NCBI GenBank assembly: GCA_963556145.1
Contig: OY744465.1
Span: 6,014,001-6,078,000 of the forward strand
Length of the DNA stretch: 64,000 nucleotides
Origin: Hygrocybe punicea
Lineage: Eukaryota; Basidiomycota; Agaricomycetes; Agaricales; Hygrophoraceae
Direction: 5' to 3'
Part shown: positions 25,124-55,923 of the stretch, one piece after another
Numbering within the stretch: the first letter of the stretch is position 1
How the letters are laid out: every line of letters starts with the position of its first letter
The notes under the pieces: generated by a model
Databases searched by the model: none
What the model saw: the letters and a program-made list of their open reading frames with translations, nothing else
Told to the model about the DNA's origin: nothing
Made by a program: the position numbers and the translations under genes

Positions 25124-26770
25124 CAGTAGACCCAGTCGTTTTGGTTAACCCGATCACAGATATAGTTGCAAAAGGTAGGTACACATAGCACAGTTGCTTG
25201 CTGGGGGGGTAGGTTAACCCAAAAGACAGCACTTGCTGGGGAAATGTGGTGTGGTAGGTTGACCCAGGTACAGCTCTTGCTGGGCAAGGGTGGCTGGTTG
25301 GGTCAACCTGGTGTCAGCTCTGCCATGGAGTCGGTTAACCCAGGGCAGCTATTCCAGGATGGTTGGGTTGACCCAGGCCCAGCTGTTCAAGCCATGTGGG
25401 TTGACCTGGCTGCAGTTATTGTTGCAGCACTGGGTTGACCCCAGTCCAGCTCTTGCTGCAGGCTGGGGTTGACCTAGATGCAGCTGTTGCTGCAGAACTG
25501 GGTTGACTAGGGCCCAGCACTTGCTGGAGAGTGGGGTGACTGGGGTCCAGCGATTGCTGCAGCACTGGGTTGGCCTGGCCCCAGCTCTTGCTGCAGCACC
25601 GGGTCAACCAAGGGCCAGTTATTGCTGCAGCATGGGGTTGACCTGGTCCCAGCTCTTGCTGCAGCACAGGGTCAACCTGGGCCCAGCTATTGCTGCAGCA
25701 TTGGGTTGACCTGGGCCCAGCTATTGTTGCAGCACTGGGTTGACCCGGGTCCAGCACCTGCTGCAGGGCTTGGGTTGACCAGGATCAGCTATTGCTGCAG
25801 CACCAGGTCGACCTGGGCCCAGGTATTGCTGTAGCATTGGGTTGACCCGGGTCCAGCACCTGCTGCAGGGCTTGGGTTGACCGGGATCCAGCTGTTGCTG
25901 CACCACCAGGTCAACCTGGGCCCAGCTATTGCTGCCGCATTGGGTTGACCTGGGCCAGATATTGCTGCAGCATTGGGTCGACCTGGTCCCAGCTCTTGCC
26001 GCAGCACTGGGTCGACCTGGGCCCAGCTCTTGCTGCAGCATTGGGTCAACCCAGTTCCAGCTCTTGTTGCAGCATTGGGTCAACCCAGGTCCAGCACCTG
26101 CTGCAGGGCTTGGGTTGACCGGGATCCAGCTATTGCTGCAGCACTTGGTTGACCCTGGCCCAGCACTTGCTGCAGGGTAGGTTGACCAGGGTCCAGCTAT
26201 TGCTGCAGCACTGGGTTGACCCAGGTCCAGCACTTGCTGCAGGGCTTGCATTGACCGGGAGCCAGCGATTGCTGCAGCACTTGGTGACCCTGGCCCAACA
26301 CTTGCTGCAGGGTAGGTTGACCAGGGTCCAGCTATTGCTGCAGCACTGGGTTGACCCAGGTCCAGCACTTGCTGCAGGATAGGTTTCCAGGGGCACAGCT
26401 CGTTCTGCAGCATTGGGTTGATCCTGGACCCACTGATGGGTCAGGCTTGGGTTCACCAGGGTCTGGCTATTGCTCCAGCACTGTGTTGCCATGCTCAGCT
26501 TTTGCTGCAGAAATGGGTTGACCCTGGCCCAGCTCTCCCTGCAGCTTTGGGTTGACCAGCGTCCAGCTCTTGCTGCAACGTGGGCTCATGTTGGTCGACA
26601 GGCTTGCATCACATCCCACTTTGCCTGCATGTATTTCATGTTCCAAACATTGCCAGAGCCCACACCAGCTCAAGCCAATATTTATTCAGAAACTGCCATA
26701 TAAAGTAATCAAAATTTTTCAACCTGTACATGACATAAATGTACCACGTAATATAATTTGAATGCACTTA
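25124..26770 (+). repeat. Left TIR of the 30.8-kb element, outer part, minisatellite
   Basis: After about 60 bp of unique tip, roughly forty units of about 34 bp follow, of the type GGGTTGACCTGGGCCCAGCT then ATTGCTGCAGCACT. The unit contains GGTTGACC and CTGCAG. Translated frames here (LLLQHWVDPGPALAAG in many variants) are artefacts of the repeat. The inner 33 bp of this TIR lie at 33800-33832, separated by a retroelement insertion. Confidence 0.9.
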
Positions 26771-27395
26771 CTAATCACACAGGTCACTTTTTGAGATGTA
26801 CAAAAAGAGAATAGGAAACGCGACCATGCCCTGAAACAGTGGCGCGGTCCGAAAGATAATGATTCTTTTTTGTTTTTTGTTTTACAATAAAGATCCGTAA
26901 GCGGAAAGGGCGGGTAGAGGTGGGTCATGGAAAACTACGCGTGGCTAACTAAAAGACGAGACAAGGTAAATAAGTGAAAAGAAAGAATGGCGGGACATAC
27001 CTTGGAGACGAGACAAGGGGCTTAAGATGCCCTTGGGGCGTTTCCGAGGTATATGACCCGTGGGCAGAAAGATGTGCTGCAGAGGGGCGTAAGAATTGAC
27101 GTCAAGCGGGGATGGCAAATAGCGGGGCGTCCGCAGGTGACGGCTCCGGTGGGTATGTCAGCTGGTGACAATGATGAATGGTAGTGAGAGAGGATGGGCT
27201 GGGCGTCGAGGAGACAGTGAGTATGTGACCGTGTGATTAGCCAAATGTAAACTAGTTTAAAAAACGTCTAATCACACAGGTCACTTTTGAGATGTAAAAA
27301 AAGAGAATAGGAAATGCAACTGTGCCCTGAAACAGCAGCGCGGTCCGAAAGATAATGATTCTTTTTTGTTTTTTGTTTTACAATAAAGAACCATA
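26771..27395 (-). repeat. B2-A2-B1 repeat block of the YR retrotransposon
   Basis: 26771-26898 and 27268-27395 are copies of each other (both begin CTAATCACACAGGTCACTTT). 26925-27267 repeats 31554-31759 plus 33659-33799. The arrangement lets a circular cDNA be rebuilt from split repeats, the known logic of this class. Confidence 0.85.
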
Positions 27396-28492
27396 AGAGG
27401 CTATGAAGAGGGAGTGGTGGGTGGGAAAAAATTAGAGTGGAAAGAAGAAGGTGGATGGGAATGCATGTAAGAGGAAAAACAAAAACAAACGCGAGAGAAG
27501 AGAGAAGGTTAGAATGGGGCCCGGGGGGCAAGATGCACAGCGAGAAGGATGGGGTGATGACGAATGTATATGCGGAAAGTCTCCGAGGCCCAGCGGCCGA
27601 TAGCCTGAATGTGGTCCAGGGGGACGCTGTCACGAGCGAGGGCAGTTGCGCCACCGGAGCAGAGGGACTGGCCGGCGACTTTGTTGGGGAAATGGTGGCG
27701 CAGGCAGCCGAGAAACCAGGAATGGAGGGGCACGGAACCGTCGTGCCGGAGCCACAGCTCAGGGTGGAGAGGGAAGAGGACGTCATGCGAGGTGAGGTAG
27801 GACTCGAAGGCGGAGACAGGGTCATCACGGTTGGAGAGACGTCAAAGGAGAATAGTGTTGCCTTCAAATAGTCTATTGGCCTTATGCCCAGGCAGGTGGA
27901 AGGAAAAACCTTCCGGCAAAAAGGTGACTGAGTGCCACATGACTATTTTTCAGTAATCGCGCAGGGAAGCGCTATCCGGCGACACCAACTCGCCAAGACG
28001 TGTAAGGGCATGGAAGCCAACGAGAAGGAGGGAAAGGAAAAGCTTATTGTCATGGTCAAAGGAAGGGTGGTAAGTATCGCACAGGGAAACAAGCTCGGAA
28101 TGGAGGAGCGGCCATTTCCGGGTGGTGCCAACGGCGCGCATCTTCTTGCAGCCATGGAGGGTACGGGTGACGAGGGGATGGAGGCAATGGGAATGGACGT
28201 CGGGGTAGAATGGTTCGAGCTGAGTACAGACACCGGATAAGTAGGTGGAAACAGAACTCGGCTTGATGTGGTGGCACATATAAATGGTGAAAAAGCTAAG
28301 GGTTTCGGGAGTGGGGGCGAGGGAAAAGCGGTGAGCGGTGCAGAAAGAAATGTAGGAGCGAAGAGCGGAAGAATACGCGAGCATCGAGGAATGTTCGAGG
28401 GAGAAACCGAGAGCGATGGCCCGTTCATGAACGAGACGCTCGTGGGTCCAGGCAACCCAGATGGGTTGGCGGGACCACCCGAGTGGGTTCAT
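27396..28492 (-). pseudogene. Tyrosine recombinase domain of the YR retrotransposon
   Basis: The N-terminal SAM-like core-binding part reads HERAIALGFSLEHSSMLAYS and SSVSTYLSGVCTQLEPFYP. The catalytic part has the first Arg in HALTRLGELV and the C-terminal IQAIGRWASETFRIYIRHHP with the tyrosine nucleophile. The central HxxR box, usually of the form HSLRSGG, reads GQSLCSGGATALA here, so both His and Arg are lost; Arg to Cys fits a CpG transition. The frame is also interrupted after LRDY (27950) and resumes in another frame. The enzyme would join cDNA circles to the genome. This copy is dead. Confidence 0.85.
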
Positions 28493-28770
28493 TGCAGGCA
28501 GGCCCCCAGCGAAAGACGAGGGGGTATGAAGGGGGAAATAGTGAAATGGGGAAAGGAGGAGAGGATGGAGGCATTGCGGAAATGGGAAAGGGTGTCAGCA
28601 ACGGCGTTGTCAATGCCGGGAACGTGAAAGACGCGAAGCTTGGTGTGGGAGGCAAGCAGGAGGTTGACGGTTGTGATGAGAATGGGGTTGTAAAGCGGTT
28701 GAGCATGTAGAGTATTAAATAGATCGACGGTATTGGTGTTGTCAGTGAAGATGGCAATACAACGAGGAGT

Positions 28771-30306
28771 TCATGAAAAGGTGGTCAGGACCCAGTGAAA
28801 GGTGGAAAGGACGGCGAGAGCCTCCCAGTAGAAAATGCGGTCGAAAGATGGGTCAGGGATCAAGCACTGGAAACCGTGAGACAAGGTAGGGCACCAGAAG
28901 CCGAGGCCGATAAAGGAAGCATCTGCGAAAAGGATGGTGTCAGCAGACGGCACATCCCAGGCAGAAGATTCGATGAGGTGTATGCCAGGCGAAGCTTCAA
29001 GGTGGCCAGCATACCACAGGAGCTCACAGCAAAGTTCCACACTGATCCAGATGAGCTGGTGGGGCTGCGACTTACCAGACATCTTGTGGTAGAGAATGGA
29101 GAGGCCGGGTCGCAGTTTGGGATGAACATTTAATGCCCAGTTCATCCAGCCTGCCAGGCGTTGGAAGTCACGCAGGGGGCAACGATGCCCGGGTCAAGCA
29201 AATTCACGGAGGGCATCGAGGAGGTCCTGACGATAGTCAGGCGACATGGTGAAAGTCATGGCGTTGGGATCGACGTCAAAGCCGATAATGGGCAAGACGG
29301 GACCGGCAAGTTGTTTGGATTCATCATGTGGCAGGCCAATGTTGTCCCATAACATTAGAAGGCGAGCTTGCTTGGCGGATAAGGCTTTATGGAAGGGGGC
29401 ATACCAAAGTACGTTGCCTTCAAAATCCCAGGAGAAGGTGTCGTCGATGTAGGCGAAAAGATCGGCAATGGACTTGATAAAAATGGTGATCCAGAGGACG
29501 AGGCCCATAAAAGCGCCCCAGATACCGCCGGCACCTCTGTTACCAAAATTGTTGCAACGGTCGACATGGCGGAGGCCATCCACTGTGATAATTTGATGAA
29601 GCTGCCAAAGAGGGTGCATAGGGAGGTGTCGATAGGCTTGAGAGACGTCAGACTTGAAAACAACGAGGTGGATGTGTGGGCCATGGGCAGAGCGGACTCA
29701 ACGGAGGGCGTGGCCCAGTTGATGAAGATTATCGAGCGGTATGGTGACCTTGTCCCGAGGAATAAGGGAGTTGAGTGAGAAGGGCTCGGCGCTCTGGTCG
29801 ACGACGAGGCAGAAAGTCGAGGTGCCAGGTTTGGGTACGACTCCGATTTGGATACCGTGCATGCTGGGAAGTAGATGAGGACCAAGCATGGGAGAAAAAC
29901 GACGGAGGGAGACCTCTTTAACCGGACAAAGTCTCATTCCGCTTGATCACGGAGGTTCCGTGCAGAATTGTCCCACGTGAGCGGGCGAGTGGGGTCAAAT
30001 TCGGCCCAGGGCCAAAACCCATCCTGCAGGCCGTGGCAGACAGAATGGATGAGACTCTGGTTGGGATGCGAGCTGAGGAGTTCCCGGAAACGAGGAACAT
30101 TGATGGGCGTGACAATTTCAAAGAGATGTGGATTGTTATTGAGGGTGTGCAACGCTGGTGCGTTGTTGAATTCCTCGAGTGATGGTGAGGGGAGCGGCAA
30201 CATCAGGAGAGTGGCTAAGGAAAGTGTGACATGGTGTGGTTGATCGGAACCATCCCAGATAAAGGTGTGAGCATACTTTGGCCGTTTCGACCATGAATCT
30301 TTTGAA
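28771..30306 (-). pseudogene. Reverse transcriptase-RNase H of the YR retrotransposon
   Basis: The RT region includes GIQIGVVPKPGTSTFCLVVD, the first catalytic Asp in FKSDVSQAYRHLPMHPL and the active-site box LFAYIDDTFSWD (YIDD). The RNase H-like part follows: TILFADASFIGLGFW and FYWEALAVLSTFHWVL. The frame is broken by stops, for example near 29698 (after LGHALR). Upstream residues 29934-30306 encode a linker typical of DIRS-like pol. Part of a relic polyprotein between gag and the recombinase. Confidence 0.85.
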
Positions 30307-31557
30307 CTACTGTTTTTGGAAGACACTGCATTCGACGGATGGATGTTGGGGTGACTGGCATTTAGCACAGATGTGTTTGTAGTCGCAGTTGGAGGCGACA
30401 TTGGGGCAACGCTTGGCATTCCAGCAGCGACAAGGTTCCTTTCGCTTGGCTGAGTCTGACTGAGAGCGTTCGGTTGCTTGGGTGTGACTTGTGCCGGCTC
30501 CGGCGTTTTGGATCCAGAGGATGTGAAGGTCCGTGAAATGGGCAAAGTCCATAAGCTCAACGTCTTGTCATTGGGCAGTGCAGATGCGAGTGGCTCTGTC
30601 ATATTGAATGATGCATTGGTGCATCGGATCAGGGAAAGCGGCGAACAGTTCACTGATGTGTTTTCCGTAGTCTCTTAGTTCAGCGGCTCTGTGGGGAAAA
30701 ACAAAGAGGGTTGCTTCACAAGTTCGTCCCCAGGCGATGACCCACTTTCCGTGCATATCAACGACTCTGGTGGGCTTGACGGCCCCAACGACGAATTCGA
30801 CGCCACCAATTTTTTCTGATCGTTTATCGTCGTGGGTGACGGAGTACCCGCTGGCGAGGACATGATCAAGGTCAACGGCTCGTCCTGCAAGCAAATTGGT
30901 CCATTCCGAGTCGGGAAACTGCAGGCACCGGGCAGAGTTGAGTAGCGACGATTTGGCAACTTTGGGATCCCGGGAGATATTGTCGAGCGTTGAGAGGGTC
31001 TTCTGAAGTGAGATGGACAAACGTGATGGTTCGAGCTCTTCCTGAATGACCCACAGGAGCAATTTGAGGTCGATCTTTGGTTTGGCTGCCCGTTCAAGTT
31101 CGCTGTCATCGCTCGGACTTCACAGATGCTTAGGCGCTCTAGGAGCATGGGTTTCTTTGTCCGGGGCTGTTGAAACAACCGGTGATGGCTTGCGTGACCG
31201 GACCACTGAGGCTTCGCGCTCAGCTGGGTCCTGCAGTGGAGCGGAACTATTGAAAGAGGTTCTGATGTTTCTGGCATCACGGCGTCATCGGTCGATGTTA
31301 TCGAGTATCCGGAGATAGGCGGCGAAGGTGGGCTTGAGGACATGGGAGTCGAGCCTAAGGCTGGTGAGTATGTCTTGGAGTTCGAGTGTAGCCGAGGCCT
31401 TGGAAATGTCTCCAAGTCGGAAATGGTCAGTAACTCGGATACACTCTTTAGCTGTTTCCGAGTTGGTGGTGCCTGTCGGCGCGGATGACGACGACGAGGG
31501 GTCATCTTGAGTACTGGACATGCAGACAGTGCGATTGGAAGAATGACGTGTATTCAT
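30307..31557 (-). pseudogene. Gag-like protein with CCHC zinc knuckle (YR retrotransposon)
   Basis: It starts at the ATG at 31557 inside the end of the A1 repeat. The N-terminus is Ser/Thr-rich, followed by a helical capsid-like region (LELQDILTSLRLDSHVLKP), a central domain (WTNLLAGRAVDLDHVLASG), and at the C-terminus a zinc knuckle of exact CX2CX4HX4C form, CAKCQSPQHPSVEC, ending at 30307. Three in-frame TGA codons (31285-31287, 31120-31122, 30568-30570) break an otherwise single frame. Nucleocapsid role is inferred from the knuckle and position. Confidence 0.75.
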
Positions 31558-31759
31558 GGAAAACTATGCGTGGCTAACTAAAAGACGAGACAAGGTAAAT
31601 AAGTGAAAAGAAAGAACAGTGGGACATACCTCAGAGACGAGACAAGGGGCTTAAGATGCCCTTGGGGCATTTCCAAGGTATATGACCCGTGGGCAGAAAG
31701 ATGTGCCGCAGAGGGGCGTAAGAATTGACGTCAAGCGGGGACGGCAAATAGCGGGGCGT

Positions 31760-33658
31760 TGTTTTGCGTGGGAAGTGTTTGAACAAATCCACACCAAGGT
31801 TTTCCGGAGTGCGTCGTTGATCAGGAAATTACCTTGTTGTCCTTTGGGATCAAGGATTTAGCTCTTTAATAACTCTGGGGTATTCCTGTTGGGTGGTTGG
31901 GTTGTGGTGTGAATCCTATCAAAGGTTAGCTTTGAGGGATACAACAAATACTTGACAATAATATAAGTCAGATGTATGACTTATAGAGGATGAGTGAACA
32001 GTGAGGTCTTCCCTACTGAAGGTAAAGACTTTGAGTGACAAGAGGTATGCGAGAGTATAAGTGGATAATAACTCAAGCAAGTATGGACAGTGTAAGATGA
32101 ACGAGTGTACAACAGTCAAGTATACAAGTAGCAAGTATACAATGAGCAGAGGTACAATAGAGATGAGCAATAGATGATGGACGATGGGCAATAGATGATG
32201 GGCAATGGGTGAGTGTAACAGTAGATGTCAAACAAAAGGGAGGTGTGACAAAATACTATGTACAGAATGAATGAACTGAACAATAGGCAAGTAGAATTGA
32301 TAATCAAGATATCGGACTTTATTCCAAAGCTTCAAACGCACATTGGCTACTAGTGCAGAATAAAGTACTGGGATATCTTTGGTGATGATCAATAGAACTT
32401 GAAAGAAGATGAATGTGACTGTACTACATGACAGAACACAAAGATATATATCAAACAAGTAATAAGGGAGTATCAATAAATCTGAGATTGATATCCTTAA
32501 ACAAATGAATGATGACCTGAACTGCAATTGGTATTTGAAGTAATAGCTACTACCAAAGTAGGTAATACAAACAAACACAGATGGGGTGAATCAGAATCTG
32601 GGAGAGGGACTGTCCTGTGACTGGGCCTGTCAGATTAGGTGACTGGGCCATCTCAAGAAACTGGGCTCTATATATACCTATTCTACAGCAGGAGTCATAC
32701 TGAGTCATAGAATGGTATATCAAATGGAGAGCATAGGATATGACTCATAGGGAGTCATATAGAGGAGAGGCATAGGTTTATGACTCATAAGGAGTCATAA
32801 TGATGAAAGGCATGGGGGGTTATGACTCATAAGGAGTCATAAGAAAGGAAGGCATGGGTTTGTGACTCATACAGAGTCAATTAATGAGTCACATAGGTAT
32901 TATAATCAAAGGAGGGGGCATAATGAGTCAGAAATAGTCAAAATTAGTCATAGGTGGTCATAATGAGTCATGGGGGGTCATGAATATGTCATAAGGGTCA
33001 TAATTTGTCATGGATAGACCAATGAGTCACATTTGATGGGAGTGAGTCATGCTGCTGGTCTAATCTTGGGTGTGTGAATCAAAGGCAAGGGCTGTGCCAG
33101 GGTGTGCTTCTAGAATCATCTTCCTGAGGCTGCGCTTCTTGATCAATTGATGCCATGCCATGTGTGTATCCTTATCAGTTAAGAAAAAGATAAGATCAGG
33201 GCTGGGCTGTATTTGATCAATTGATATGAAATGTGATGTGCTTCTTGATCAGGGAATGATGGGTGGCATGTGTTATCTCTATGATTGGAGATAAGGATGT
33301 GGCTGTGCTGCTTGTGCTTCTTTGGCCTCTGATAAGATGTTTTGGGGGCCTTATCAGTTAAGATAAGGGTATTCCTTCATTTCCTCTGCATAGATAAGGG
33401 TTTTCTTGTATGTCCCTTCTGTAGATAAGGGTTTCCTTGCATGTCCCTTGTTTGGATAAGGGTTTCATGTATGTCCTATGTGCAGATAAGGATTTCCTGT
33501 GTGTCCTATGTGCAGATAAGGGTATTCCTTTCTACTCCATGTGCAGATGGAGGCATTCCAGTATGAATGGTCCTTGTAATGTGATGTGTGCTGTAGGGAT
33601 GGTGACTAGTGACAGCATATTACTATGTTTTGATCCGAATCCTGTTTGGATCATGACA
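31760..33658 (-). mobile_element. Solo LTR-like insertion in the A1 repeat, 1.9 kb
   Basis: The insertion is bounded by TGTTTTGC at 31760 and ATGACA at 33658 (TG...CA), with GCGT on both sides (31756-31759 and 33659-33662). The intact A2 repeat shows the empty site. No coding content. On the minus strand the end GGTGTGGATTTGTTCAAACA resembles the end of the candidate LTR at 57075-57802, so they may belong to one family. The short frames inside are not genes. Confidence 0.8.
32690..33545 (-). promoter_or_regulatory. Clustered TGACTCA and GATAAG sites in the LTR
   Basis: 32690-33060 holds ten or more TGACTCA/TGAGTCA sites, several in palindromic pairs such as TATGACTCATAAGGAGTCAT. 33180-33545 holds eight or more GATAAG sites, partly in tandem units of about 33-40 bp. 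TGACTCA is the Gcn4/AP-1 bZIP consensus and (A/T)GATAAG the GATA-factor consensus. In minus orientation both arrays fall in the upstream (U3) half of the LTR, where enhancers sit. Confidence 0.55.
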
Positions 33659-33799
33659 GCGTCAGCAGGTGACGGCTCTAGTGGGTATGTCAGCTGGTGA
33701 CAATGATGAATGGTAGTGAGAGAGGATGGGCTGGGCGTCGAGGAGACAGTGAGTATGTGACCATGTGATTAGCCAAATGTAAACTAGTTTAAAAAATGA

Positions 33800-33832
33800 T
33801 TAAAAACACAGCAAATAGCAAAATTAAAAAAT
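33800..33832 (+). repeat. Inner end of the left TIR
   Basis: 33 bp matching the reverse complement of 54244-54276 with two substitutions. Its displacement from 26770 by exactly one YR retrotransposon proves that element is a later insertion. Confidence 0.85.
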
Positions 33833-35452
33833 CTGAAATTAATCTAAGGAGTACTTGAATGAGTACTCATTGTGGTACACATAAGTGCCTGATTGTTGGT
33901 GGACCAGGACCTTTGTTTCAGCCAAGCAAATGCACAGAATTGTGCATTGTGGCTGACCCATCAACCAAGTCCGAACTTCAAGTTCAGCTTTACTTTGAAC
34001 CTTTCATTTCTTGGCTACAACAGATTCTGGGACCACCAAGTGCCAGGCACTGATCATCAATACAATAGATACTGTACATAGTAGTTTCACAATTATTCTC
34101 ATATTTTTCAGAGCAATATTGGTAAAGTAGCATTTGAAGGGTCCGAAATTGGCAGGGAGGTATCAATGAATCATGGATATCTCTCTATGTATGCCATAAT
34201 AAAATACAAAATTTGGGGAGGATGTAGTTAGAGGCTAATTCTATCCCTACATGGTCTTAAATGTGCTACACAGTTGTTGTGCTCCATGCAATTACACTGA
34301 GAAAAGTAAGATCTTGGTTACATATAAGGCAACTCGCACCCGTTTGGGCAATCGGCAACCTCCGGCGTGGGTTCAAATCATCGCGTACTCCACGATGCGT
34401 CCACGAGAACAGCAACAGCAGCAAAATCAAGTAGAAGATAAGTATATTTCTCAAAATTTATTACTATTACTATGCTAGCTAATATTATTGTTTTTATGAA
34501 GGACTTTCTCACTGCCACGCCTGGAATTGACCGCAACACGCATGCCTGCGCCATGTCATGTCAATGCCCAACTGAAGGGCCGAAACGGCGGATGGCAGGC
34601 AACGATGAGGACAGAGGCGACGAGGGCACAGACGGCCAGCCAGGGAAGATGACGGGGACGGAGACGGCCAGGGAAGAGACGACAGGACAACGGAGTCGAT
34701 GACCATTCAGGGATCAACGAGGACGATGACGGGGATGGAGATGGGGACGACGACAACGAGGATGACGTTGGGAACGGGGACAACGGGGACAGCCAGCTAG
34801 GGGATGACAGGACGACACAGACGACAACGACCATCCATCGGACGACGAGGACTACGGGAGATGACAATGACAACGACAACGATGACGACGACAAGAGGAA
34901 TGACGGGAACGGGAACGACAGGGACCGGAATGGCATGGACAGGGACGATGGGGACGGGGACAGGAATGAGGGGGATGAGGACGGCGGAGACGTAGACGAA
35001 GATGACGAGGACAACGGGAATGTATGTACAGTCCACTCTCCTCCCTCTCTCCGTCTCCGTCTCCGTCTCTGTCTCTGTCTCTGTCTCTGTCTCTGTCTCC
35101 CTCCCTTCCCTGCTGCCTTCCCACCTTCCCTCTTCTCCCACTCCCACTCCCTTCTCCCACTCCCACCTTCCTCTCACTCCACACCCACCTATCTTCCTCT
35201 CACCTGCCTTCTGCCCTTCACTATTTAATTATGTATTTGGATAAAATAATCATTAACTTTATGTGTCTATTTTAAGTAATAGTGAGGTTATATATATTGA
35301 TTCCAATGGAGAATTGAGCAATATTGAATAGAAAAGCACAATATTCCAAGTGGGGTAAGTTCTGATTTTGTCATAGATTGTCATTGGGGATAAGTAGCTC
35401 CTGTAATGGCTGACTGATAGTAAAAGTAAGAGATTGTGCATTGTCAAAATAA
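33833..35452. other. Cargo segment without a confident gene; low-complexity tracts
   Basis: 33859-34250 contains short coherent frames (SELQVQLYFEPFISWLQQIL) that may be gene scraps. 34610-35020 is a purine-rich GACGGGGAC/GACGACAAC tract, and 35036-35110 is a TCTCCG/TCTCTG microsatellite. Frames across these are repeat artefacts. A perfect tRNA-type B box occurs at about 34370, but no cloverleaf forms. Confidence 0.5.
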
Positions 35453-35484
35453 CTAGTGGGGTGTGGGCCATTGCTTTGCATGGC
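35453..35484 (-). terminator. Helitron 3'-terminal hairpin and CTAG end
   Basis: Arms GCCA/TGGC and TGC/GCA with one bulged base and a TTT loop, then about ten bases, then CTAG-3' followed by host T. This is the rolling-circle transposition terminator, not a transcription terminator. Confidence 0.72.
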
Positions 35485-35521
35485 ATGTTACTCGTCCCTT
35501 TTTTTAGCAAGAGAACAAATA

Positions 35522-38080: not shown

Positions 38081-38083
38081 AAA

Positions 38084-43263: not shown

Positions 43264-43556
43264 GTGGATTGGTGATAGTAAGAGGAAGCACCATCCATGT
43301 ATCTATTTAACTAGTTAAGTGGTTCGGATCATGAACAACAATTAACACAATTGGATTGATCATATGACATTATCTCATTTGTAAGCTCTTCCAAAAACAT
43401 CATAAGGTGTGCCTGAAGCTTTACAATCTTTTTATTCAATTGAATGTTTTCGTAACATACCTAATATTCTGGTACTGAATAGTCATAGCTTTCCTTGGAG
43501 TGATGGTTATGCTTGCCACCACACGAGGGGGATTTGTTACAGTTGTCACAGGGGAT

Positions 43557-43758
43557 GGATGAGAAATTTATCATCAAATAATATTGAGATATCCACTCAA
43601 ATATTAAAATTATTTTTGTTGTTATCATATGTCCGAAAACGTTGTAAAAAGTGGATAACGATATGTTTTCGACATTTTTGGACTTATGATAGCAACAAAA
43701 TAATTTCAATATTTGAGTGGATATTTCAATATTATTTGATGGCCAAAATTCCTCATCC
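43557..43758. mobile_element. Palindromic MITE, 202 bp
   Basis: Inverted arms of about 80 bp (GGATGAGAAATTTATCATCA and GGATGAGGAATTTTGGCCAT at the tips, then near-identical) enclose about 40 bp. The MITE is absent from the matching position in Helitron copy 1 (around 1235-1250), so it inserted after the copies separated. Superfamily unassigned. Confidence 0.75.
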
Positions 43759-44219
43759 GTCTCCTATGTGTATCCCCACTTAATTGGTCCATAAAGTTGG
43801 CAGTTCTGGTTTATTACATATATTCAATTTGAATGTTCATTAGCTTGAGTCATAGTAATCCAAGGTTGTCCTTCTCATGTTACCTGTGGTGGCTGTACTA
43901 TGATAAACGTGAACTGAAATTAATACATTTAATTTAGACAAACAGATTTTCAGTCACCAAGATTGATGTCTTATGTGATATCTGTGTATGCTTATTATCT
44001 TGCTCAATTGTTATGGTCATAGGAAAATAACACAAGCCATTTTCAATAGAGCAAAAAAATAAATGTACAGATATTGTACAAATGTAAAGAATGGCGGTAG
44101 AGGAGGACATTGAGGGCACAGATTATCAACAGATTACCAGAAATCAACGACTGAGATAAAAGTGTCTTTAGTCAAATATAATTAATACTCCACAAAAAGA
44201 GGACTTACAGCACCTGAAA

Positions 44220-46130
44220 TTAAGGCCCTGTGTCCAGTTTGGATGTCGACGCCTTGGGAGATGAAGACCTCATTTGGCTTGGAGGAATCGAGATTAGGAT
44301 ATTGGGAGGAATGATATTGCTCCAATCTACATCCATTAATAAACCGCCTGGCTCCGCAGGGGTCAATGACTGATGGCGTGATGATGCACACGTATTGGGA
44401 CAGAATCCTAGGATATTGACATGATCAGATGTGAAATCTATATAAAGTGTGATGTACATACCTGGAGTTGGAGACTTCTTCGGAGGCTTCACTGGCTGGA
44501 GCGTTTCTGCAATAATGCCCGCTTGCTCCAATGCCAGATCCAGCTTCCTCCTCTTTGCTGTCTCGCCGTCCTCGTGATCGCCGCTGAGAGACTCCTGTAT
44601 GGGTTCGGGAGGTCCATTGTTGTCGTGCATGATTATATCGTCATCAGAAATCATCAACCTGCCCCATTCTGGCAAGTCCAACTTTGCGGATTCCAGTGGC
44701 TCATCATCTGCCTCGGAGGAGATGGGTGGTTTAACTTCCACTGTCAATTTTTCGGATTCCGATTTCTTGGATCCGCACAACGGCCCAATTTCGACAGCGA
44801 CTGCGACATGTCAGTGCATTATTCAGAGCAAAGTGAGTAACATATGCATTTGAGCCTTGGATCGTTTCTTCTTTACGGGGCTAAGTCCTCCTCCATCTTG
44901 ATATTGTCTATACATGAATAAATGTGTTGGATTATCGTTTTGATATTCGGAATTCAATAACTCACCCTCATCGTCGTCCTCGGCTTTGGACTTCATTGTG
45001 CGTTCTGCCACGGTGAAGGGTTTGCATGTATGACGATCACAGACAATGAAAGTACTTACTGGACTTGGGCTTGGGCTTGGGCTTCTTTTTGTCCTTCTCG
45101 GATGAATTGTCTGCGCCACCTGAATATTCAATACATCTATACACCGCTATGGTTGAAAAGTTATATAAACCAGCAGCAGATGCCTTCTTTTTTTTGACTG
45201 ATTTTGACTTGGCTTTTCACTTCCCCTTGCCCTGGGGAACCGGCTCCTCTGTGCAAATGTATTATATCATTAGCACAATCACACATGTAAATTCTAGATC
45301 ACACCTTCATCATCGTCCGCCACATCGACATTGACGAGGATACTATGTCCTTTACACCAAGCAATAACCTGACCGATGATTTCGAGCTTTGTGGCGTCCG
45401 GAAGCCCACCGAACGACCAATTTGCCGATGTTCTGCTGTGCCATGCTGGCACGGATTCATCGTATTTTGCCCAATCTATGATGCCAGACGTGAGAATTCG
45501 TTTGGCCAGAAATGCATATATATACTCACCTAGGTCCTCGGGCTTGATCTTGGTGTTCACGGTGCCATGTTGAATCAAAGCCGATGGAGAATGTTTTCCG
45601 ACATAAAATTCTTTCAGGAGCCAATCATCGAAGATGTTGCTTCGCAAGTCACGGGTAACCTCATTGGCCCGTTTTGCGACCAGAACCTCTGCCCATATTT
45701 CGTCCATGATGATGTCCGTATATTTGAGGTAGTCATGCAGTGTATCGGTTCCTTCCTTATCGTTTTTGACGTAGTCCGGCGAGTAGTGGGGTGCTTTGTT
45801 GTATGCCACTGCCGCTGTCGCGTAGATGTACAAGTCCATCTGGTAAATCAATCGATGCAATGGTTCCTCGTATCGTTCGGGCATTTCGTGCCATAACTCG
45901 CCTCGGGCGGTGGCATTGTGAGGGTGAGTGTTCAGTACATAGAGATTACCAGAGAAGACGGGAATGGTGCTGGATTCCTTGTTGGGTGCCGGAATCTTGG
46001 GCGGGACCATGTACTGGATTTGGAAAATGCGATGCAGCTCCTGCTGCCTTTTGGGCGGCGCATCAGGCCAGTATTTGAAAGCCGCAGGATTGACAGTGGG
46101 AGTCGAGGTTTTGACGACTGGCAAGGACAT
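44220..46130 (-). pseudogene. Hypothetical conserved gene a (Lys/Glu-rich C-terminus)
   Basis: Exon 1 (46130-45305) encodes about 275 residues beginning MSLPVVKTSTPTVNPAAFKY, with a mostly helical middle (RLIYQMDLYIYATAAVAYNK, FLAKRILTSGIIDWAKYDE). Short exons follow with a KSKSVKKKKAS basic stretch, KKKPKPKPKSS, and the acidic/basic tail shared with the window's first 830 bases. An in-frame TGA (45217-45219) interrupts a lysine-rich run where arginine would fit. No domain recognised; nuclear location is likely from the basic patches. It is divergent from gene b (46703) across a palindrome-containing spacer. Confidence 0.6.
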
Positions 46131-46479
46131 GGTAGATGTAGTAGAATCTTTTTGGTGGGTGTCTGAGGGGAAAAATGAGGGGAACAGAAAACGTTGGAAG
46201 TCAGGGTCGATGCCCTAGCTTATGAAGCAACTGGCCAGGTCAGATGACCTGTCAACGACACATGTTCAGCATTGCATACATTGATCGGACACGTGGTGTA
46301 CAAATAACATATAACCAAACAGGGTTTACTTGATTCTGAAGTTGTGCCATAATACATCCTTAAAATGACGATAAGCGCTATTTGTCATGTAGCTATACAA
46401 ATATATATTCTTAACTTATGACACGTCGAACAGGTCAAATATGCTTGATGTTAATATACATAATGGTATGGTTATTAAC

Positions 46480-46692
46480 ATAGATAATGAATTATCGAAC
46501 ACTTGTCGAACACTTGTCGAACAGGCCGAACACTGTTTGACAAGTGTTCGACAAGTCAATGCTACGTCAATGAATTAAGTGTAATATATATTAACGTAGC
46601 AATGTCTTGTTGAACACTTGTCGAACAGTGTTCAGCCTGTTTGACAAGTGTTCGACAAACCATTGCTACATTAATATATATTACACTTAATT
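46480..46692. repeat. Palindromic repeats upstream of gene b
   Basis: Two stems built on ACTTGTCGAACA facing GACAAGTGTTCGACAAGT lie at about 46500-46560 and 46610-46660. The second is itself flanked by a 32-bp inverted repeat (46571-46602 against 46660-46692, AATTAAGTGTAATATATATT). The core is the same as in the tandem repeats at 52929-53640. Confidence 0.8.
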
Positions 46693-46702
46693 TATTAACA
46701 AT

Positions 46703-48520
46703 ATGCCCAAATCTCGCAAGGAAGTTGGCTATAAAGTGTGCTGCCACATCTGTCCAGGACGAAACTGCCTCTCAATGCAGACGCAAACTCTCCTTTGGAA
46801 AAAGGAAGGAAGTTCCTGTCAGTGCCATTGTGGATCCGCCAGCAAGCATCCAAATTGCATCGCATCCGGTACCTGTCCTCTATCCAGCTGTATTGGATGG
46901 AAGGGCACAGAAAATTCCATGGGTGTTCGAAATGCTACTGAAGAGGAACTCGCGTTGTTGCCATCGATGGCGTCCAATACACCAGATCCCACTTCCGATG
47001 TAGAGATGGAGGATGCAGCCATGAGCACAATTACACAGTCCGTCAGGACCAATCCCATTTTCAACATAATCTTTGTTCTTGATCCCACCACCCGTATTAC
47101 AAGTAAAGCTGCTGCAACCAATGATCTTGCATTCATCAACGTTACGATTTCACAAGACGAATACGAAACCGTCTCGCACCTCGATGGTTATATTCACAAT
47201 ATCAAGGCGCACAAGACGCGATATTTTGTTTGCATGCAGGAATGGGTTCGTATATTTTAAAAATGTATGGAGAATTATCGCTAAAGAATACTTTCCAATT
47301 CCAGGTTTATGTTGCTATGCGAATGCACCACTGGCGGTGTGATGAACCCAACGGTGCAATACGCCGCTTCAATGTTGAATACATGTTTTGGCCGGAGTTC
47401 ACCCATGCCATGCTCAAATCACCGGGGTCAAATATAACATGGAACAAGTTCAAAGCCACCAATTGCGTATTTGGTGGTGTGGACATGGGAATGTCCTATA
47501 TGTGAGCGTGTCAAACATTTTTGTCAATTTTCCTTTTTTTTAATTCAGTTAATTCGAATATCATCTATAGTGGTAATCAATATGGTATAATGGTTGAAAA
47601 TGTGTCGACATTCTTGGCCGGAATTGATGAGCTGTGTCGAACAGTTCAAGTGTGGCCACCACCAAAACAAATGAACACGGTGCATTCGAAATGGACGCAG
47701 ATGCAAAACCTGCTCCATGTTGCATTGTCAACAACACACATGATGCGACCACAATCGAGGCTGCTGAAGGACGGTGAACCGTTTCCACCGAACATTGTTT
47801 TGAAGCGAACGCATAGTGACACCAGTCACCATGTGTTGTTCCTGGGCGATCCAAGGCGGAATTGGGACTATATGTGCCTGAACTGCGAGGTCCCTGGTTC
47901 ACGTTGGTTTGGTCAAACCTATGTTGAGCCGCTGGCCAAGATCGGAGAATGGCGAGTGTTTTTGTTAGGTGGAAGGGACATTTACACAGTCCATACACAT
48001 TACAACAAAGAGAGCAAATCGTGGAGGTGGGATATTGTGACGACCTTCTATACTTTAGAGGAATTGAGGTAGGCAGATGCCCTCCATCTCGCATTACATG
48101 TTCACGAGTTTTTGGCATTTTCCAAGATCGTTCCAAGCACAGGGAATGCTCATGAAGACCGATGTTTGCAATCCGGATCACGGCTCCATTGTAATTCGAG
48201 ATCAAGCAAGACAGCAATTCTTCAGCTTCATATGAGACACCTACGAGGGGCTGTATGCCATAGAGTCGATGTTGATTGGTGGGAAACCTTCAATGAGTGT
48301 ATTTTGGCGCATGGACATTTCGCTCATTGTTGATTCAAACACCAACAATGTCAATTACTTCGTGAACGAGATCGAATGGTATCACACCTGCAGCTTGTGG
48401 TCCAACATGAAGCAAGGCATGAAATCCGCTTGGGCACCAATCGGATCTTTTGCGGACACATTTTCGGCGGTATTTTATAAATGGCTTGTAGACATTACAA
48501 ATGCATACTCCTATTTTTGA
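46703..48520 (+). pseudogene. Gene b: hypothetical protein, possibly ATP-grasp-like
   Basis: Exons 46703-47245, 47305-47501, 47571-48068 and about 48120-48520 join in frame. Conserved-looking segments are TISQDEYETVSHLDGYIHNI, AMRMHHWRCDEP, FGQTYVEPLAKIGEWRVFLL, GGRDIYTVHTHY, then MSVFWRMDISLIVDSNTNNV and YFVNEIE. The pattern EWRVF..GG followed by an Asp-containing strand and a final N-E pair recalls ATP-grasp ligases; this is tentative. I recall homologs across Agaricomycetes with no known function. One TGA (48233-48235) interrupts exon 4 where family members have arginine; otherwise the gene is whole. Confidence 0.6.
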
Positions 48521-48695
48521 ACTTCACTTGTACATTAGTCAACTTTAAATGTCACAAATTGGATCTCATGTCTGAGAGGCATGAAACACTTTGATTTCAA
48601 TGGTAGGTACATTACAAATTCAAGGCAACATAAAGAGAATTGGCAATAGGCCATGCTGCATGGCACACTAGTTTCATGACGAGAAAGACGACAAG

Positions 48696-50730
48696 TTAAT
48701 GAGAGACACCCAATACCATCACCCACTGCACATTTAGGGAAATACTCTTCAACAAATCATCAGAGCGTTTGAAGGTATTGATCGTGTGGCCGACCACAAT
48801 GCAGGATTCTGCAGGAACATCGCCTGGAAAGTGGGGGAGTTGCTGAAGTATTTTGAGGGTGTCGGTAAAGTCCGTTTTAACTTTCCGGGCATCATAGATT
48901 GGGACTATGAATACAAGCATCAAAAACAAAACCAAGGACCTTGTGTGAGAGAGAATAAAACTAACCAATGTCATGGAATGACAGCGCAGTCTTTTGGTAA
49001 GATGGAGCGGGACGTCGAGTAAAAGGACTAGACTGCATGAATTTCGAGGAGGAAGCTTCTATTGAATATGAGTAAGGATTGACAAGAGAGCATTGAGTGG
49101 TATACTCACTGCTAGGAAATGCATCCATCCCACTTGCCGCTGTCGTCGAGAAGGACAGAAAGTCCTTATATAGTTGTGCACGAAATTCCGCCTCACCAGT
49201 GACCATTCCAATGGTGCCAACATACCGCTCCCATTCTCTTGAAAAGAAAGCCCCTTGGATAACTTTGATCGGTTTCGTGTTCCCACCAACTTTTGGCTCA
49301 TCAAGGAAGCATGAATCAACTAGAATGACAGAAGTGAAGATCGTTGGGATGGCACCAGCAACGGAGTGGAAGAAACTACGCCCAAATGCTCCAGTAGAGA
49401 TATTGGCGGGATCGTCACGAGAAAGATTCGAGTACTTGCCAGATCGAACAAAGGTCACTGCGGAGAACAACAAACTGTTATGCAATGTGAATTGTCTTTA
49501 ACCGTCAAGTCCTAGTTGACAGCTTACTTTTGGTTGACCTTGCGAATGTTGCTGATGACATCGCTATATTGAGGATTTCCATTCCCTATGACACTAGACC
49601 AAGATACCATGGCCGCTGCCCTATTCAATATTTAACATTGATTCAGAAGATAAAACTGAATAGTTACTTAATGTTGACACAGTCCTTATATGTATCGACC
49701 AACTGAGGGTCTCTTGTACCAATGTCAGACTCATCCATGTTTGGAGAGCGTATACTAAAGCAAGGGCATCAATTAAAAAAATAATAGAGACATGTAATGT
49801 ACCTGGTGATTTGGTGTTGTGCATATGTCATAGCTCCATCATCGCTACTGGAAACATTGTCGTCACTGATATCACGAAGACAGGTAGTCTTTGTGACTTT
49901 GGAGGAAATCACCTTCATGGTTTTGATGGATGTATCAGAGTTGCTGATCATTCATTAATATATGAAGGACAAGAATCATATGAAGTATCATACCGAAGAC
50001 CATTATCTGCATTTGATTTCTTAGAACCGAATTCGAGTTTTGTGATAGGCCTATGACATGTCTAACATATGACCAATTAATCAATTTCCAACTCACATGA
50101 ATGTTTCATCGCTGTCGTCATCCTCATCATGTAATTGATGCTGGTTTGACTTTGTCTTCTTTGATGGAGAAGAGAATTTACTATATAAAATGATTAAAGA
50201 ATACACAAATATAAAAGACATTATTTAGAGCTACTGACCTATCTTCGTCTTCCTCTGAAGCATGCCGCCTTTTCCTGCTGAATATAAAGAATATTAGATG
50301 GCATGAACAGTATAAATTGAACTTGCAAACCTTGCTCTATTGGTGGTCTTCCTGGACCACCTATATTACTGAAGTAAATCAATAGTATCTGAAAATATAA
50401 TTTATGAGACACAGGTTTGGCAATGCTAGTGATGCTATGAACACTAATAACGTCTTCGTCTTCGGAGTTGGAAATACTACTGACGGTTTAGTCGTGGTGG
50501 ATGAATCAGAATATTGGAATAGACACGTACACTTCTTCATCAACAAGCTTGGTGGTTGTGACCTTCTTACCCTTCCTGGAAACAACAGTATGACCTTTGT
50601 TCAGAACGAACAGCAATACATGAAAATAAATATACATATGAAACGGCGCTTGATCGAGCTTTGGACTGAGTCTTCACGTTCACAGACTTCTTAGGAGCCA
50701 TTGCAAAGATAAGAGCTTTAAGGTGAGCAA
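48696..50730 (-). CDS. Gene c: hypothetical nuclear-type protein, multi-exon
   Basis: It begins MAPKKSVNVKTQSKAR (50730). Small exons carry basic/acidic patches (RKRRHASEEDED, SPSKKTKSNQHQ), then SDTSIKTMKVISSKV, DESDIGTRDPQLVDTYKDCV and GNGNPQYSDVISNIRKVNQK. The main exon (about 49460-48985) reads VTFVRSGKYSNLSRDDPANI, FGRSFFHSVAGAIPTIF and REWERYVGTIGMVTGEAEF; the last exon (48915-48696) reads VPIYDARKVKTDFTDTL and AESCIVVGHTINTF. I recall this as a widespread Agaricomycete family without function. Some 5' exon joints are uncertain. It is convergent with gene b and divergent from gene d. Confidence 0.55.
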
Positions 50731-50829
50731 CGAATCTGTGCGAGATATTATAGATGAATGAGGGGTCAGATGTGGACGATACCATTGGACTCTCATCGCT
50801 ATTTAAGTATACTGAGACAGATCAAAAAC

Positions 50830-52667
50830 AATAAAAAAGTCGTTTATAGATATCACACTGACAGGTACGAAAACCACATCTGCTGATGGTTTGAAGGAGA
50901 ACTATTCGGACCATAGTGCCATAAAAATGCAAAAAATCAGGGACATTCCCCATGATGTAGAACTGATGATTGACCAGCTGTTATGCTCAGCGTCATCCAA
51001 CAACATGGATATGGATTACTGGTATGCAGAATAATCAAACACTAAATCTAATTAGGGTTTGGGAATGTAGAACAGCTATCACCACATGGAGCTGATCATA
51101 AGATCATAACACCGCCAAATCGAACATGGAAATTTATGTGACATATATATTCATTTCCAAACAAATACAAACATCGGATCAACTATACCGACACTTGCAT
51201 CGGAACAAACATTCTGAATGGATAGGGGTTTCCTTTCAATGCTGTACAATAAGGAGGTCAAGCATTGCCGATAGGTGTGGATGTATATCCTGTCCTATGA
51301 AAATGGAAGAAAACAATAGGAATCTATTGAGAAGATCTGCAAAATAAAAATGCAAACACCATACAAACATCACAAGTTCATGGAGAATGAACATGATGCA
51401 CTGTCATAATATCAATAACGATCGAAAACAATTCATGATAAAACAGTCGGAAATGGTGCATGAATTATACCCCCTAATTCCCACTTCGCAAATGGACACC
51501 TATTACGATTTCAAAACAGCATGTCAGTACATATTATATTGAAGGAATTCATATATTCAACTCTACTGTACAGCTGAATGTTTAAGCAATCTCATATCTA
51601 CACGGATGGACAATGATGACAGCCAACTTGCCAATTCTACAAATGTATGTTCAATTCTTATGATGTACACTGTGTTTCATTACATTTGCAGATTTCGAAT
51701 ATCAATGTAGTGCGTAATGACTCACCGGATTGCTGGAAACTTACACGGCCGAGCACCGATACCACTGAGCATGAAGAGCTTGTCTTAAGCTTACAGGCGA
51801 TATTGGTGGCCAAAGACCTACCACCGATCATCAGCAGGTAGATTATATCATCATCTAGAATCATAAACAATTAATTTACATATGTTTTTCAGACCGCCCG
51901 AATGTCAAACACCGTTTCTCCGTCAAAGCATCCTTATCACAGGCCTCAACATACCATTATTCGAATCATATATTGACAACCTCCGAATCTTACACCAGAA
52001 ACTTGGTCGTCACTTCCCAGAATGTGCAATGCTGGACTTCATGTCAACCACCTATATTGAATACACTGCATTATCTATTGGCACCCAATATTTCACTGAC
52101 CGCTGACATGACAAAGTTTCATACAATATTCCATTCGAACACAATGTCGATCCCAAAGGCATACTGTCATCCATGAGCAATACTCGATACTTCCATGGGA
52201 CAGACAATGAGGTCCTTTATTTCAAGTTGACGTCAGAAGGAGGACGGCATTGGTGAGTGCTCAGCACAACAATAGCTTGGCTATTAATAATGACATAGAT
52301 CATAGCTTTGTACCTGCCAGTCCGACTTGCTTCAGGATTGGTGACATTGTAGAAGTCCAGATAACGGTATCGGCGGTTCCAGTTAAGAATGACAAATTCA
52401 AGATGATTCTGAATCTGCGCTCATTAGCGCTGGTCGACAGCGAGTTTACTGAGGTAACAGACATATCTAATAATACAATGAATAATAACTAATGTACATC
52501 CAGAATGCGACGATAAGTCGAAACAAAGCATCTCAACCTTCTTGCAATACAATGACGAGGATTAATATCAAACGTAATGTGGGATATGTCCAGTTGGCTG
52601 ATGATGGTGAAGATGTCATAGAAACCCATAGACGTTTGACCAACCTCAGGATGAATGAAGCCGATTG
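50830..52667 (+). pseudogene. Gene d: hypothetical protein, possible OB-like fold
   Basis: The 5' exons are unclear (50880-51030 reads KMQKIRDIPHDVELMIDQLL). Clear exons follow: 51691-51837 (DSPDCWKLTRP, LQAILVAKDLPPIISR), 51893-52250 (QSILITGLNIPLFESYIDNL, YIEYTALSIGTQYFTD, IPFEHNVDPKG), about 52320-52455 (CFRIGDIVEVQITVSAVPVK, LRSLALVD) and 52503-52667 ending RRLTNLRMNEAD. GDIVEVQ and the beta-rich C-terminal part suggest an OB-like barrel, as inference only. TGA at 52104-52106 interrupts exon 2. I recall homologs in many Agaricomycete genomes. Confidence 0.5.
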
Positions 52668-52928
52668 AGATCTATTATAATTACATTGTACGGTCACATA
52701 CGAACATCAATTTTATATAATATTATTTTCTGCAATACATTCACAAGTGAAATAACAACACAAATAGTTTCATAAAGTGACGGGACATCTGAGTATTATT
52801 TAATTGTAAAAGGTCCTCATCACTTTCCTGTGAATATAACTATTCATACTGATATGGTATTTCTCGTTCAATGGTCCGGCGTAACATCCATGGACATGTG
52901 TTCGGTACATTTCAAAAAACTTCAATTA

Positions 52929-53640
52929 ATCAATTTCAATGATTGAAATGAAGCTTGAGACAGTTGTAGAACAGCTTGTCAAACACTGTTTGGCCTGTTC
53001 AACAAGTGTTCGACAAGCCCATCATTAATAATACAATGCACATTGCAAACTTAGCTAAATGCCATATAATGGAAATACGGCTTTTGTTATATTTTCAATG
53101 ATTGAAACGAAGCTTGAGACACTTGTACAGTGGCTTGTCGAACACTGTTCAGCCTGTTCAACAAGTGTTCGACAAGCCCATCATTAATAATACAATGCAC
53201 ATTGTAAACTTAGCGAAATGCCATATAATGGAAATACTGCTTTCATTACATTTTCAATGAATCAATTTCAATGATTGAAATGAAGCTTGAGACAGTTGTA
53301 GAACAGCTTGTCGAACACTGTTCGGCCTGTTCAACAAGTGTTCGACAAGCACATCATTAATAATACAATGCGCATCGTAAACTTAGCTAAATGCCATATA
53401 ATGGACATACTGCTTTTGTTACGTTTTCAATGATTGAAATGAAGCTGCAGATACTTGTAGAGGGGCTTGTCGAACACTGTTCGGCCTGTTCAACAAGTGT
53501 TCGACAAGCACATTATTATTAATACAATGCACATTGTAAACTTAGCCAAATCATTTTCAATGATTGCAATGAAGCTTGAGACAGTTGTAGAACAGCTTGT
53601 CACACACCGTTTGGCCTGTTCAACAAGTATTCAATATTTA
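52929..53640. repeat. Five tandem repeats of about 130-175 bp with a palindromic core
   Basis: Each unit contains CTTGTCGAACACT, a short spacer and AGTGTTCGACAAG (cores begin at about 52974, 53132, 53308, 53466, 53597), preceded by GATTGAAATGAAGCTTGAGA and followed by CATCATTAATAATACAATGC. The fifth unit is degraded. The 13-bp arms are perfect inverted repeats in the best units. Confidence 0.88.
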
Positions 53641-54243
53641 CCTTATCAATACTTCTACTGCACATAGCACATGTATCTATATTACCGCAACATTTGACAC
53701 AGTTGTTTGTGCAATCGCAACCACCCAGATCACAAACAGTTTCCATGCACACAGTGAAGTATACATATCTTTAGATGCACAGTTCACATAAAGGTCATCA
53801 TATGTCCATTGCATGGGACATTCCTCAGCATACTGCTGTGACACTGGTTGAACACTTCACAGCGCACTGTTTCGCGCATTGAACTCATATATACTTCTTC
53901 AGGGGTGCATCACACTACCAATGCCTTTGAATATTATAACAAAGCTCTCCAGCATTTATGGATTGCTATTGCAATACAAACACGCTATAACAGTACCTAT
54001 TCCCAAATTGGTAGCTGTGATCTAGACACCTGTGATCCGGCTCCCTTATTGTTCTTGCTCATTGGGACAACAAATTCTCACGGTTACAATGTCGGCAATC
54101 ACATGGTTTCATAATTATTCCCAGGGCTTCAAAATTGTTCCCACAGTTTGCCAACATTGTTCTCATGGCTTGGCAAATTAGAGTCTGACCCTGAGTTGAG
54201 GAATCCACCGTATAGAACGATTCCCTTATAGGGACTCGTAATA
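53641..54243. other. No gene seen; spacer between palindromic array and right TIR
   Basis: Only short frames without recognisable motifs. It ends where the right TIR begins. Confidence 0.5.
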
Positions 54244-55923
54244 ATTTTTTAATTTTGCTATTCCCTGTGTTTTTAATAAGTGCATTCAAATTATATTACG
54301 TGGTACATTTATGTCATGTACAGGTTGAAAAATTTTGATTACTTTATATGGCAGTTTCTGAATAAATATTGGCTTGAGCTGGTGTGGGCTCTGGCAATGT
54401 TTGGAACATGAAATACATGCAGGCAAAGTGAGATGTGGTGCAAGCCTGTCGACCAACATGAGCCCACGTTGCAGCAAGAGCTGGACGCTGGTCAACCCAA
54501 AGCTGCAGGGAGAGCTGGGCCAGGGTCAACCCATTTCTGCAGCAAAAGCTGGGCATGGCAACACAGTGCTGGAGCAATAGCCAGACCCTGGTGAACCCAA
54601 GCCTGACCCATCAGTGGGTCCAGGATCAACCCAATGCTGCAGAACGAGCTGTGCCCCTGGAAACCTATCCTGCAGCAAGTGCTGGACCTGGGTCAACCCA
54701 GTGCTGCAGCAATAGCTGGACCCTGGTCAACCTACCCTGCAGCAAGTGTTGGGCCAGGGTCAACCAAGTGCTGTAGCAATCGCTGGCTCCCGGTCAATGC
54801 AAGCCCTGCAGCAAGTGCTGGACCTGGGTCAACCCAGTGCTGCAGCAATAGCTGGACCCTGGTCAACCTACCCTGCAGCAAGTGCTGGGCCAGGGTTAAC
54901 CAAGTGCTGCAGCAATAGCTGGATCCCGGTCAACCCAAGCCCTGCAGCAGGTGCTGGACCTGGGTTGACCCAATGCTGCAACAAGAGCTGGAACTGGGTT
55001 GACCCAATGCTGCAGCAAGAGCTGGGCCCAGGTCGACCCAGTGCTGCGGCAAGAGCTGGGACCAGGTCAACCCAATGCTGCAGCAAGAGCTGGGACCAGG
55101 TCGACCCAATGCTGCAGCAATATCTGGCCCAGGTCAACCCAATGCAACAGCAATAGCTGGGCCCAGGTTGACCTGGTGGTGCAGCAACAGCTGGATCCCG
55201 GTCAACCCAAGCCCTGCAGCAGGTGCTGGACCCGGGTCAACCCAATGCTACAGCAATACCTGGGCCCAGGTCGACCTGGTGCTGCAGCAATAGCTGATCC
55301 TGGTCAACCCAAGCCCTGCAGCAGGTGCTGGACCCGGGTCAACCCAGTACTGCAACAATAGCTGGGCCCAGGTCAACCCAATGCTGCAGCAATAGCTGGG
55401 CCCAGGTTGACCCTGTGCTGCAGCAAGAGCTGGGACCAGGTCAACCCCATGCTGCAGCAATAACTGGCCCTTGGTTGACCGGTGCTGCAGCAATCGCTGG
55501 ACCCCAGTCACCCCACTCTCCAGCAAGTGCTGGGCCCTAGTCAACCCAGTTCTGCAGCAACAGCTGCATCTAGGTCAACCCCAGCCTGCAGCAAGAGCTG
55601 GACTGGGGTCAACCCAGTGCTGCAACAATAACTGCAGCCAGGTCAACCCACATGGCTTGAACAGCTGGGCCTGGGTCAACCCAACCATCCTGGAATAGCT
55701 GCCCTGGGTTAACCAACTCCATGGCAGAGCTGACACCAGGTTGACCCAACCAGCCACCCTTGACCAGCAAGAGCTGTACCTGGGTCAACCTACCACACCA
55801 CATTTCCCCAGCAAGTGCTGTCTTTTGGGTTAACCTACCCCCCCAGCAAGCAACTGTGCTATGTGTACCTACCTTTTGCAACTATATCTGTGATTGGGTT
55901 AACCAAAACGACTGGGTCTACTG
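54244..55923 (-). repeat. Right TIR of the 30.8-kb element, minisatellite
   Basis: Inverted copy of the left TIR, 1,680 bp, uninterrupted. The same roughly 34-bp units appear as reverse complement (CTGCAGCAATAGCTGG and similar). Scattered substitutions distinguish it from the left TIR, with no net insertion or deletion at any of several checked points. Confidence 0.9.

Follow-up and report, generated by a model that had tools for sequence, protein, structure and literature searches.

The basidiomycete Hygrocybe punicea carries, in a 64,000-nucleotide stretch of contig OY744465.1 (positions 6,014,001 to 6,078,000; hereafter the window), a 30.8-kb block that is enclosed by long inverted repeats and a 7-bp duplication and that interrupts a gene. 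The locus raises the question of whether such a block is a giant foldback transposon that transported some 27 kb of cargo in one piece, as proposed in a preliminary description, or a smaller element into which others have been inserted. Comparison with other copies in the same genome indicates that the block is very probably an ordinary foldback copy of about 5 kb in a multicopy gene, within which a DIRS-like element and a Helitron are nested separately.

A precise insertion in a multicopy gene

The tip CAGTAGACCCAGTCGTTTTGGTTAACC begins at position 25124 on the forward strand and again at 55923 on the reverse strand, and the heptamer GTTATAT adjoins both ends of the block (25117-25123 and 55924-55930), in agreement with the CAG...CTG tips and the flanking repeat reported in the preliminary description. 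The frame closure from HINVI to YTGPG reported with them also holds: once the insert and one GTTATAT are taken out, the host frame reads ...YHINVIYTGPG.... A 333-nt query composed of the joined flanks was aligned over 333 of 333 positions at five other loci, with identities of 90-96% and a match length of exactly 333 bases at four of the five, and more distant copies of the gene likewise span the joined site. The host gene is multicopy, and paralogous empty sites are present in the genome. Because of the tips, the GTTATAT on both sides, the frame closure, and the paralogues that span the joined site, the foldback copy is a precise insertion and not a chance arrangement. Insertion took place by a cut-and-paste mechanism that duplicated 7 bp of the target, as the duplications and the paralogous empty sites demonstrate. 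The host gene had been called Plavaka from its resemblance; the precise interruption of a multicopy gene stands, but the name found no support in Pfam, where no Plavaka match was obtained for nine translated pieces of the gene or for the joined 221 amino acids.

When compared with ordinary copies, the element's own sequence is made up of the two arms and a low-complexity core (25124-26770, 33800-35452, and 54242-55923), with a total of 4,982 bp. Matches to four ordinary copies were confined to positions 25124-26783, 33827-35452, and 54239-55923 of the window. The arms are very long inverted arrays of tandem repeats, as in foldback elements, and measure 1,647 bp on the left and 1,682 bp on the right, instead of the 1,680 bp that had been given for both. 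Their alignment with each other included 1,717 columns, with 1,600 matches, 12 mismatches, and 105 gap columns (99.26% identity without gaps). Eleven of the 12 mismatches are transitions, a pattern compatible with cytosine deamination. Apart from its 32 and 34 occurrences in the arms, the palindrome GGTYRACC was absent from the core and occurred twice in the other 59 kb of the window. In 500 runs of a first-order Markov model of the left arm, the palindrome occurred 0.06 times on average and never more than once. Rfam models detected nothing in the window at the gathering score, and a plasmid collection contained no match to the foldback core.

Foldback copies across the genome

The 28-base tip, searched with up to three mismatches, was found 351 times in the 92-Mb genome (179 forward, 172 reverse), corresponding to a family of up to about 175 elements, while a control with the reversed pattern was found in neither orientation. 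Pairs were derived from 100 of these 351 tips, all without mismatch and none beyond 5.54 Mb of contig C7. These formed 37 neighbouring inverted pairs, 32 of which were 5,219-9,970 bp long. An exact 7-bp duplication flanked 13 of the 15 pairs that were fetched and 11 of 11 pairs at tip loci; five of the latter overlap with the fetched pairs, and with the window included, the duplication was present in 20 of 22 unique pairs. The duplicated heptamers shared no strong consensus. The family is thus multicopy, with tips that stay constant, arms that vary, and duplicated target sites, as is characteristic of foldback elements. These further copies bear out the part of the preliminary description that identified a foldback-type element, with its 7-bp duplications and its long arms of internal repeats.

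When 12 copies were compared with themselves, the two arms that make up an ordinary copy paired with each other in single alignments of 1.3-3.0 kb, mostly of more than 2 kb. A 34-bp unit that includes the GGTYRACC palindrome is repeated along each outer arm. Each half-element of the 15 fetched copies contained 22-68 of these palindromes, and the outermost was always located at base 20. Apart from stretches of N in L009 and L051-L053, all sequence of the 15 fetched copies is represented in the copy at locus L019. Copies of 9.4-10 kb are merely longer versions of the foldback element. In a second long copy, of 17.9 kb, the inner 9.9 kb of which is locus L067, the arm likewise breaks off into unrelated repeats, from L067:1311. 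Among the tip loci, the unpaired tip L025 carried a small palindromic insert and no gene, and the remaining 29 consisted of ordinary arm sequence over their inner 1.5 kb.

As a separate observation, L067:1309-9901 within the 17.9-kb copy contains two long direct repeats that lie 4,938 bases apart, and in both of them a 0.9-kb part shares about 80% identity with window positions 59293-60224.

In the titles and opening lines of abstracts on foldback elements and on fungi or basidiomycetes, no fungal foldback family was described, and within this literature the family may be undescribed. What is possibly new here is the family itself, composed of non-autonomous fungal foldback elements with arms of GGTYRACC palindromes.

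Two elements nested in the foldback copy

The larger insertion carries a Rep part and a helicase part, ends with CTAG at position 35453 (3' end, coding strand), and lies between A and T. These are the features of a Helitron, which has Rep/helicase reading frames, a CTRR 3' end, and an A-T insertion site. At all five other loci that were viewed, the base preceding the element on the plus strand was also A. The site is uninterrupted in ordinary copies: the sequence GTCAAAATAATAA, which equals that of the window after removal of 35453-54241 between A and T, was found in 13 of the 15 fetched copies, with L052 diverged and L009 without a match.

Recurrence of the Helitron and of the junctions was assessed from the best 40 scored candidates for each probe, and the counts are lower bounds. 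The 3' end had at least 41 further matches, 40 of which started at query positions 18-23 (junction at 23) and one of which was an inner piece. The 5' end was found in at least 39 other places, where the match stopped at query positions 342-347 in 37 cases (junction at 342), at 331 in one, and at 353 in one. A probe from the middle of the element matched at least 39 other places with 96-99% identity. Among the 26 of these places that lie on the plus strand, the 5' end was located on the expected side in 15, at a distance of 3.8-14.1 kb (4.3 kb in the window), and the 3' end in eight, at 14.7-21.8 kb (14.2 kb in the window). Both ends were on the expected sides at three places (C7:2637601, C1:2144397, and C1:6067037). 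Since many of the middle places have a 5' or a 3' end on the expected side, positions 35453-54241 behave as one Helitron of about 19 kb. It resembles fungal Helitrons in its Rep/helicase reading frames, its CTAG 3' end, and its A-T insertion without duplication, but at about 19 kb it is longer than is usual for them. On the contigs with listed tips, none of 21 places for the 3' end and none of 18 for the middle fell inside any of the 37 tip pairs.

Two further observations concern this family. A 159-bp tandem repeat array lies within the Helitron near its 5' end (52921-53682), and a second Helitron of the same family occupies window positions 1-6410 on the plus strand, where 1618-6339 matches 43426-38713 with 95% identity and 1-1225 matches 44998-43769 with 81% identity.

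The smaller insertion is probably a DIRS-like element. Self-comparison revealed split direct repeats (26771-26904/27268-27400 and 26925-27279/31554-31759+33659-33811), and its minus-strand open reading frames (ORFs) are presumably tyrosine-recombinase- and reverse-transcriptase-like. In Pfam, no recombinase or reverse transcriptase was matched above the cut-off in this insertion, and RVT_thumb appeared below the threshold only. Where matches at other places extend to its left end, they start at query positions 22-32, equivalent to 26761-26771. The left junction is uninterrupted in ordinary copies, where ...GCACTTATTAAAAACACAGG... or a close variant was found in 14 of 15, and L009 gave no match. 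In addition, the insertion point is partly identical to a repeat junction inside the element (TTAAAAACACAG versus CTAATCACACAG), as would be expected of integration by a tyrosine recombinase. None of 20 DIRS-like places was inside a tip pair, on the same contigs and pairs as above. The element is itself interrupted by a 1.9-kb sequence that is likely a solo long terminal repeat (LTR), of which only the right end was probed for recurrence; this end was found at 35 other loci with 97-100% identity.

The two inserts are separate elements, as demonstrated by their termini, the uninterrupted sites in ordinary copies, and their recurrence elsewhere. In the simplest order of events, both would have arrived after the foldback element landed in the host gene. 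The coordinates of all parts are given in Table 1.

Table 1. Parts of the 30.8-kb block and its flanks (window positions).
Feature	Position	Strand	Evidence or content
Host gene, part left of insertion	24793..25123	+	Frame closure, paralogue matches
Left target-site duplication GTTATAT	25117..25123	.	Direct reading
Left arm	25124..26770	+	Tip CAGTAGACCC, 34-bp tandem repeats, 32 GGTYRACC palindromes; uninterrupted in ordinary copies
Nested insertion 1, probably DIRS-like	26771..33799	-	Self-comparison; recurrence elsewhere
LTR-like 1.9-kb insertion inside nested insertion 1	31760..33658	.	TG...CA, possible 4-bp GCGT duplication
Foldback core, low-complexity, without transposase	33800..35452	.	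33827-35452 matches ordinary copies
Nested insertion 2, Helitron, 18,789 bp	35453..54241	-	Domains, termini, A^T site, recurrence
Helitron helicase part	35522..38083	-	Pfam: PIF1, E 3.8e-11
Helitron Rep part	40426..42780	-	Pfam: Helitron_like_N, E 6.1e-24; DUF6570
Right arm	54242..55923	-	34 GGTYRACC palindromes
Right target-site duplication GTTATAT	55924..55930	.	Direct reading
Host gene, part right of insertion	55931..56265	+	Frame closure, paralogue matches

Nested insertions or a giant cargo carrier

Because none of the listed matches, the window's own excepted, crosses any of the four junctions by more than 12 bases, the composite appears once in the genome, and there is no sign of its movement as a unit. 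The preliminary proposal was that the cargo of about 27 kb travelled as one unit, within a giant P/Galileo-like element or in a composite mobilised by foldback ends. The whole block is indeed enclosed by the tips, the arms, and the GTTATAT duplication, and a 29.9-kb pair elsewhere, the interior of which was not read, is flanked by the exact duplication TGATATT. However, what had been taken for cargo is two insertions with ends of their own that recur elsewhere and whose insertion points are uninterrupted in ordinary copies, and none of the listed Helitron or DIRS-like places falls within the 29.9-kb pair. Movement as a unit is therefore very improbable. The giant element is thus a false one, and its removal illustrates that reading nested repeats from tip to tip can mimic cargo.

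An even smaller chance is given to the 30.8-kb form being the ancestral autonomous element, from which the 5-10 kb copies derived by internal deletion. Such a history would accommodate the position of both inserts near the borders between arms and core, and the lack of a recognisable transposase in the 15 fetched copies. Against it, ordinary copies carry, at the joins, the intact target sequences expected for the Helitron (A^T) and for the DIRS-like element, both inserts are also present at places that lie outside the listed tip pairs, and the ORFs of the block that have Pfam matches above the cut-off belong to the Helitron. A chimeric assembly, which repetitive arms could produce by misleading the assembler, is equally hard to credit for a block that lies within a 7.4-Mb contig, with an exact duplication, a matching paralogous empty site, and an A^T Helitron site that has ordinary sequence on either side.

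Three observations weigh against the nesting of separate elements in an ordinary copy. Of the 37 pairs, five are longer than 11 kb (17.9, 21.2, 29.9, 38.8, and 49.3 kb), and only the 17.9-kb one was opened; about 1.4 kb that adjoins the left arm in L019 is deleted from the window copy; and the tip pairs L010 and L052 lack matching 7-bp flanks. The ends of these two pairs were possibly joined by recombination between copies, a process known for Galileo inversions.

Candidate transposases

No transposase was found in the ORFs of four foldback copies that were read, and the seven longest inner ORFs of L019 matched no Pfam domain above the cut-off, the sole match being Rrn6_K-rich below the threshold. 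Most likely, the foldback element is mobilised in trans by a transposase whose gene lies elsewhere in the genome, and the palindromes, which recur about every 34 bp, would be multiplied binding sites of that transposase, as tandem THAP-domain binding sites are reported for the arms of Galileo in PMC3688188.

Genome-wide profile searches gave 186 KDZ and 152 hAT matches. The best candidate mover would be a Kyakuja-type KDZ transposase, followed by a weaker candidate, an hAT transposase of the kind that makes 7-bp duplications. According to PMC12730594, two Kyakuja families of Laccaria bicolor have 7-bp duplications and CA..TG ends, both of which are also found in the foldback family. The combination would fit Kyakuja, a KDZ group of the Agaricomycotina, at least as well as P/Galileo. 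It is proposed, tentatively and with less than even confidence, that these elements form a foldback lineage outside P and Mutator, in which the arms are expanding and shrinking arrays of GGTYRACC binding sites that are mobilised in trans by KDZ (Kyakuja) transposases. Several findings count against these candidates. The two published Kyakuja families are described without terminal inverted repeats in PMC12730594, whereas the foldback family has them. On contigs C1, C2, C3, C6, and C7, neither the 62 listed KDZ matches nor the 60 listed hAT matches include one inside the 37 pairs, a test that covered part of the 186 and 152 matches and 100 of the 351 tips. A 7-kb KDZ locus with a CxC2 domain (L066) also had neither GGTYRACC nor a convincing tip.

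For hAT, the CAG tips resemble hAT tips, although no listed hAT match lies between the listed tips. The hAT7 families, which share the 7-bp duplications, are described from rust fungi (Pucciniomycotina) in PMC12730594.

A fungal P-superfamily foldback, moved by a P/Galileo-type (THAP) transposase, is unlikely. Galileo makes 7-bp duplications, the length observed in 20 of 22 pairs, and its tips, like those of Foldback, differ from the tips of the Hygrocybe family. Long inverted arms with many internal repeats in variable number are shared with the Galileo and Foldback elements of Drosophila, and for Galileo, arms rich in repeats are described in PMC3688188 and PMC3573991. In contrast to these, the present family has a fungal host, a GGTYRACC arm palindrome, and no autonomous copy or P-type transposase that was found. 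The genome yielded no match to the P-type profile PF21787, and neither did the controls, while KDZ and hAT matches were abundant.

The family could connect foldback architecture with one more superfamily of transposases. The natural variants in arm length also provide material with which the effect of multiplied binding sites on transposition can be tested.

Other features of the window

Beyond the block, positions 19792-22442 include a 77-bp inverted repeat (97% identity) around an ORF whose HTH and DDE_3 matches fall below the threshold, and this region is perhaps a Tc1/mariner-like element. Positions 11478-12133 are tandemly repetitive, with periods of about 80 bases and of 69-149 bases, and the copies are roughly 73-84% alike.

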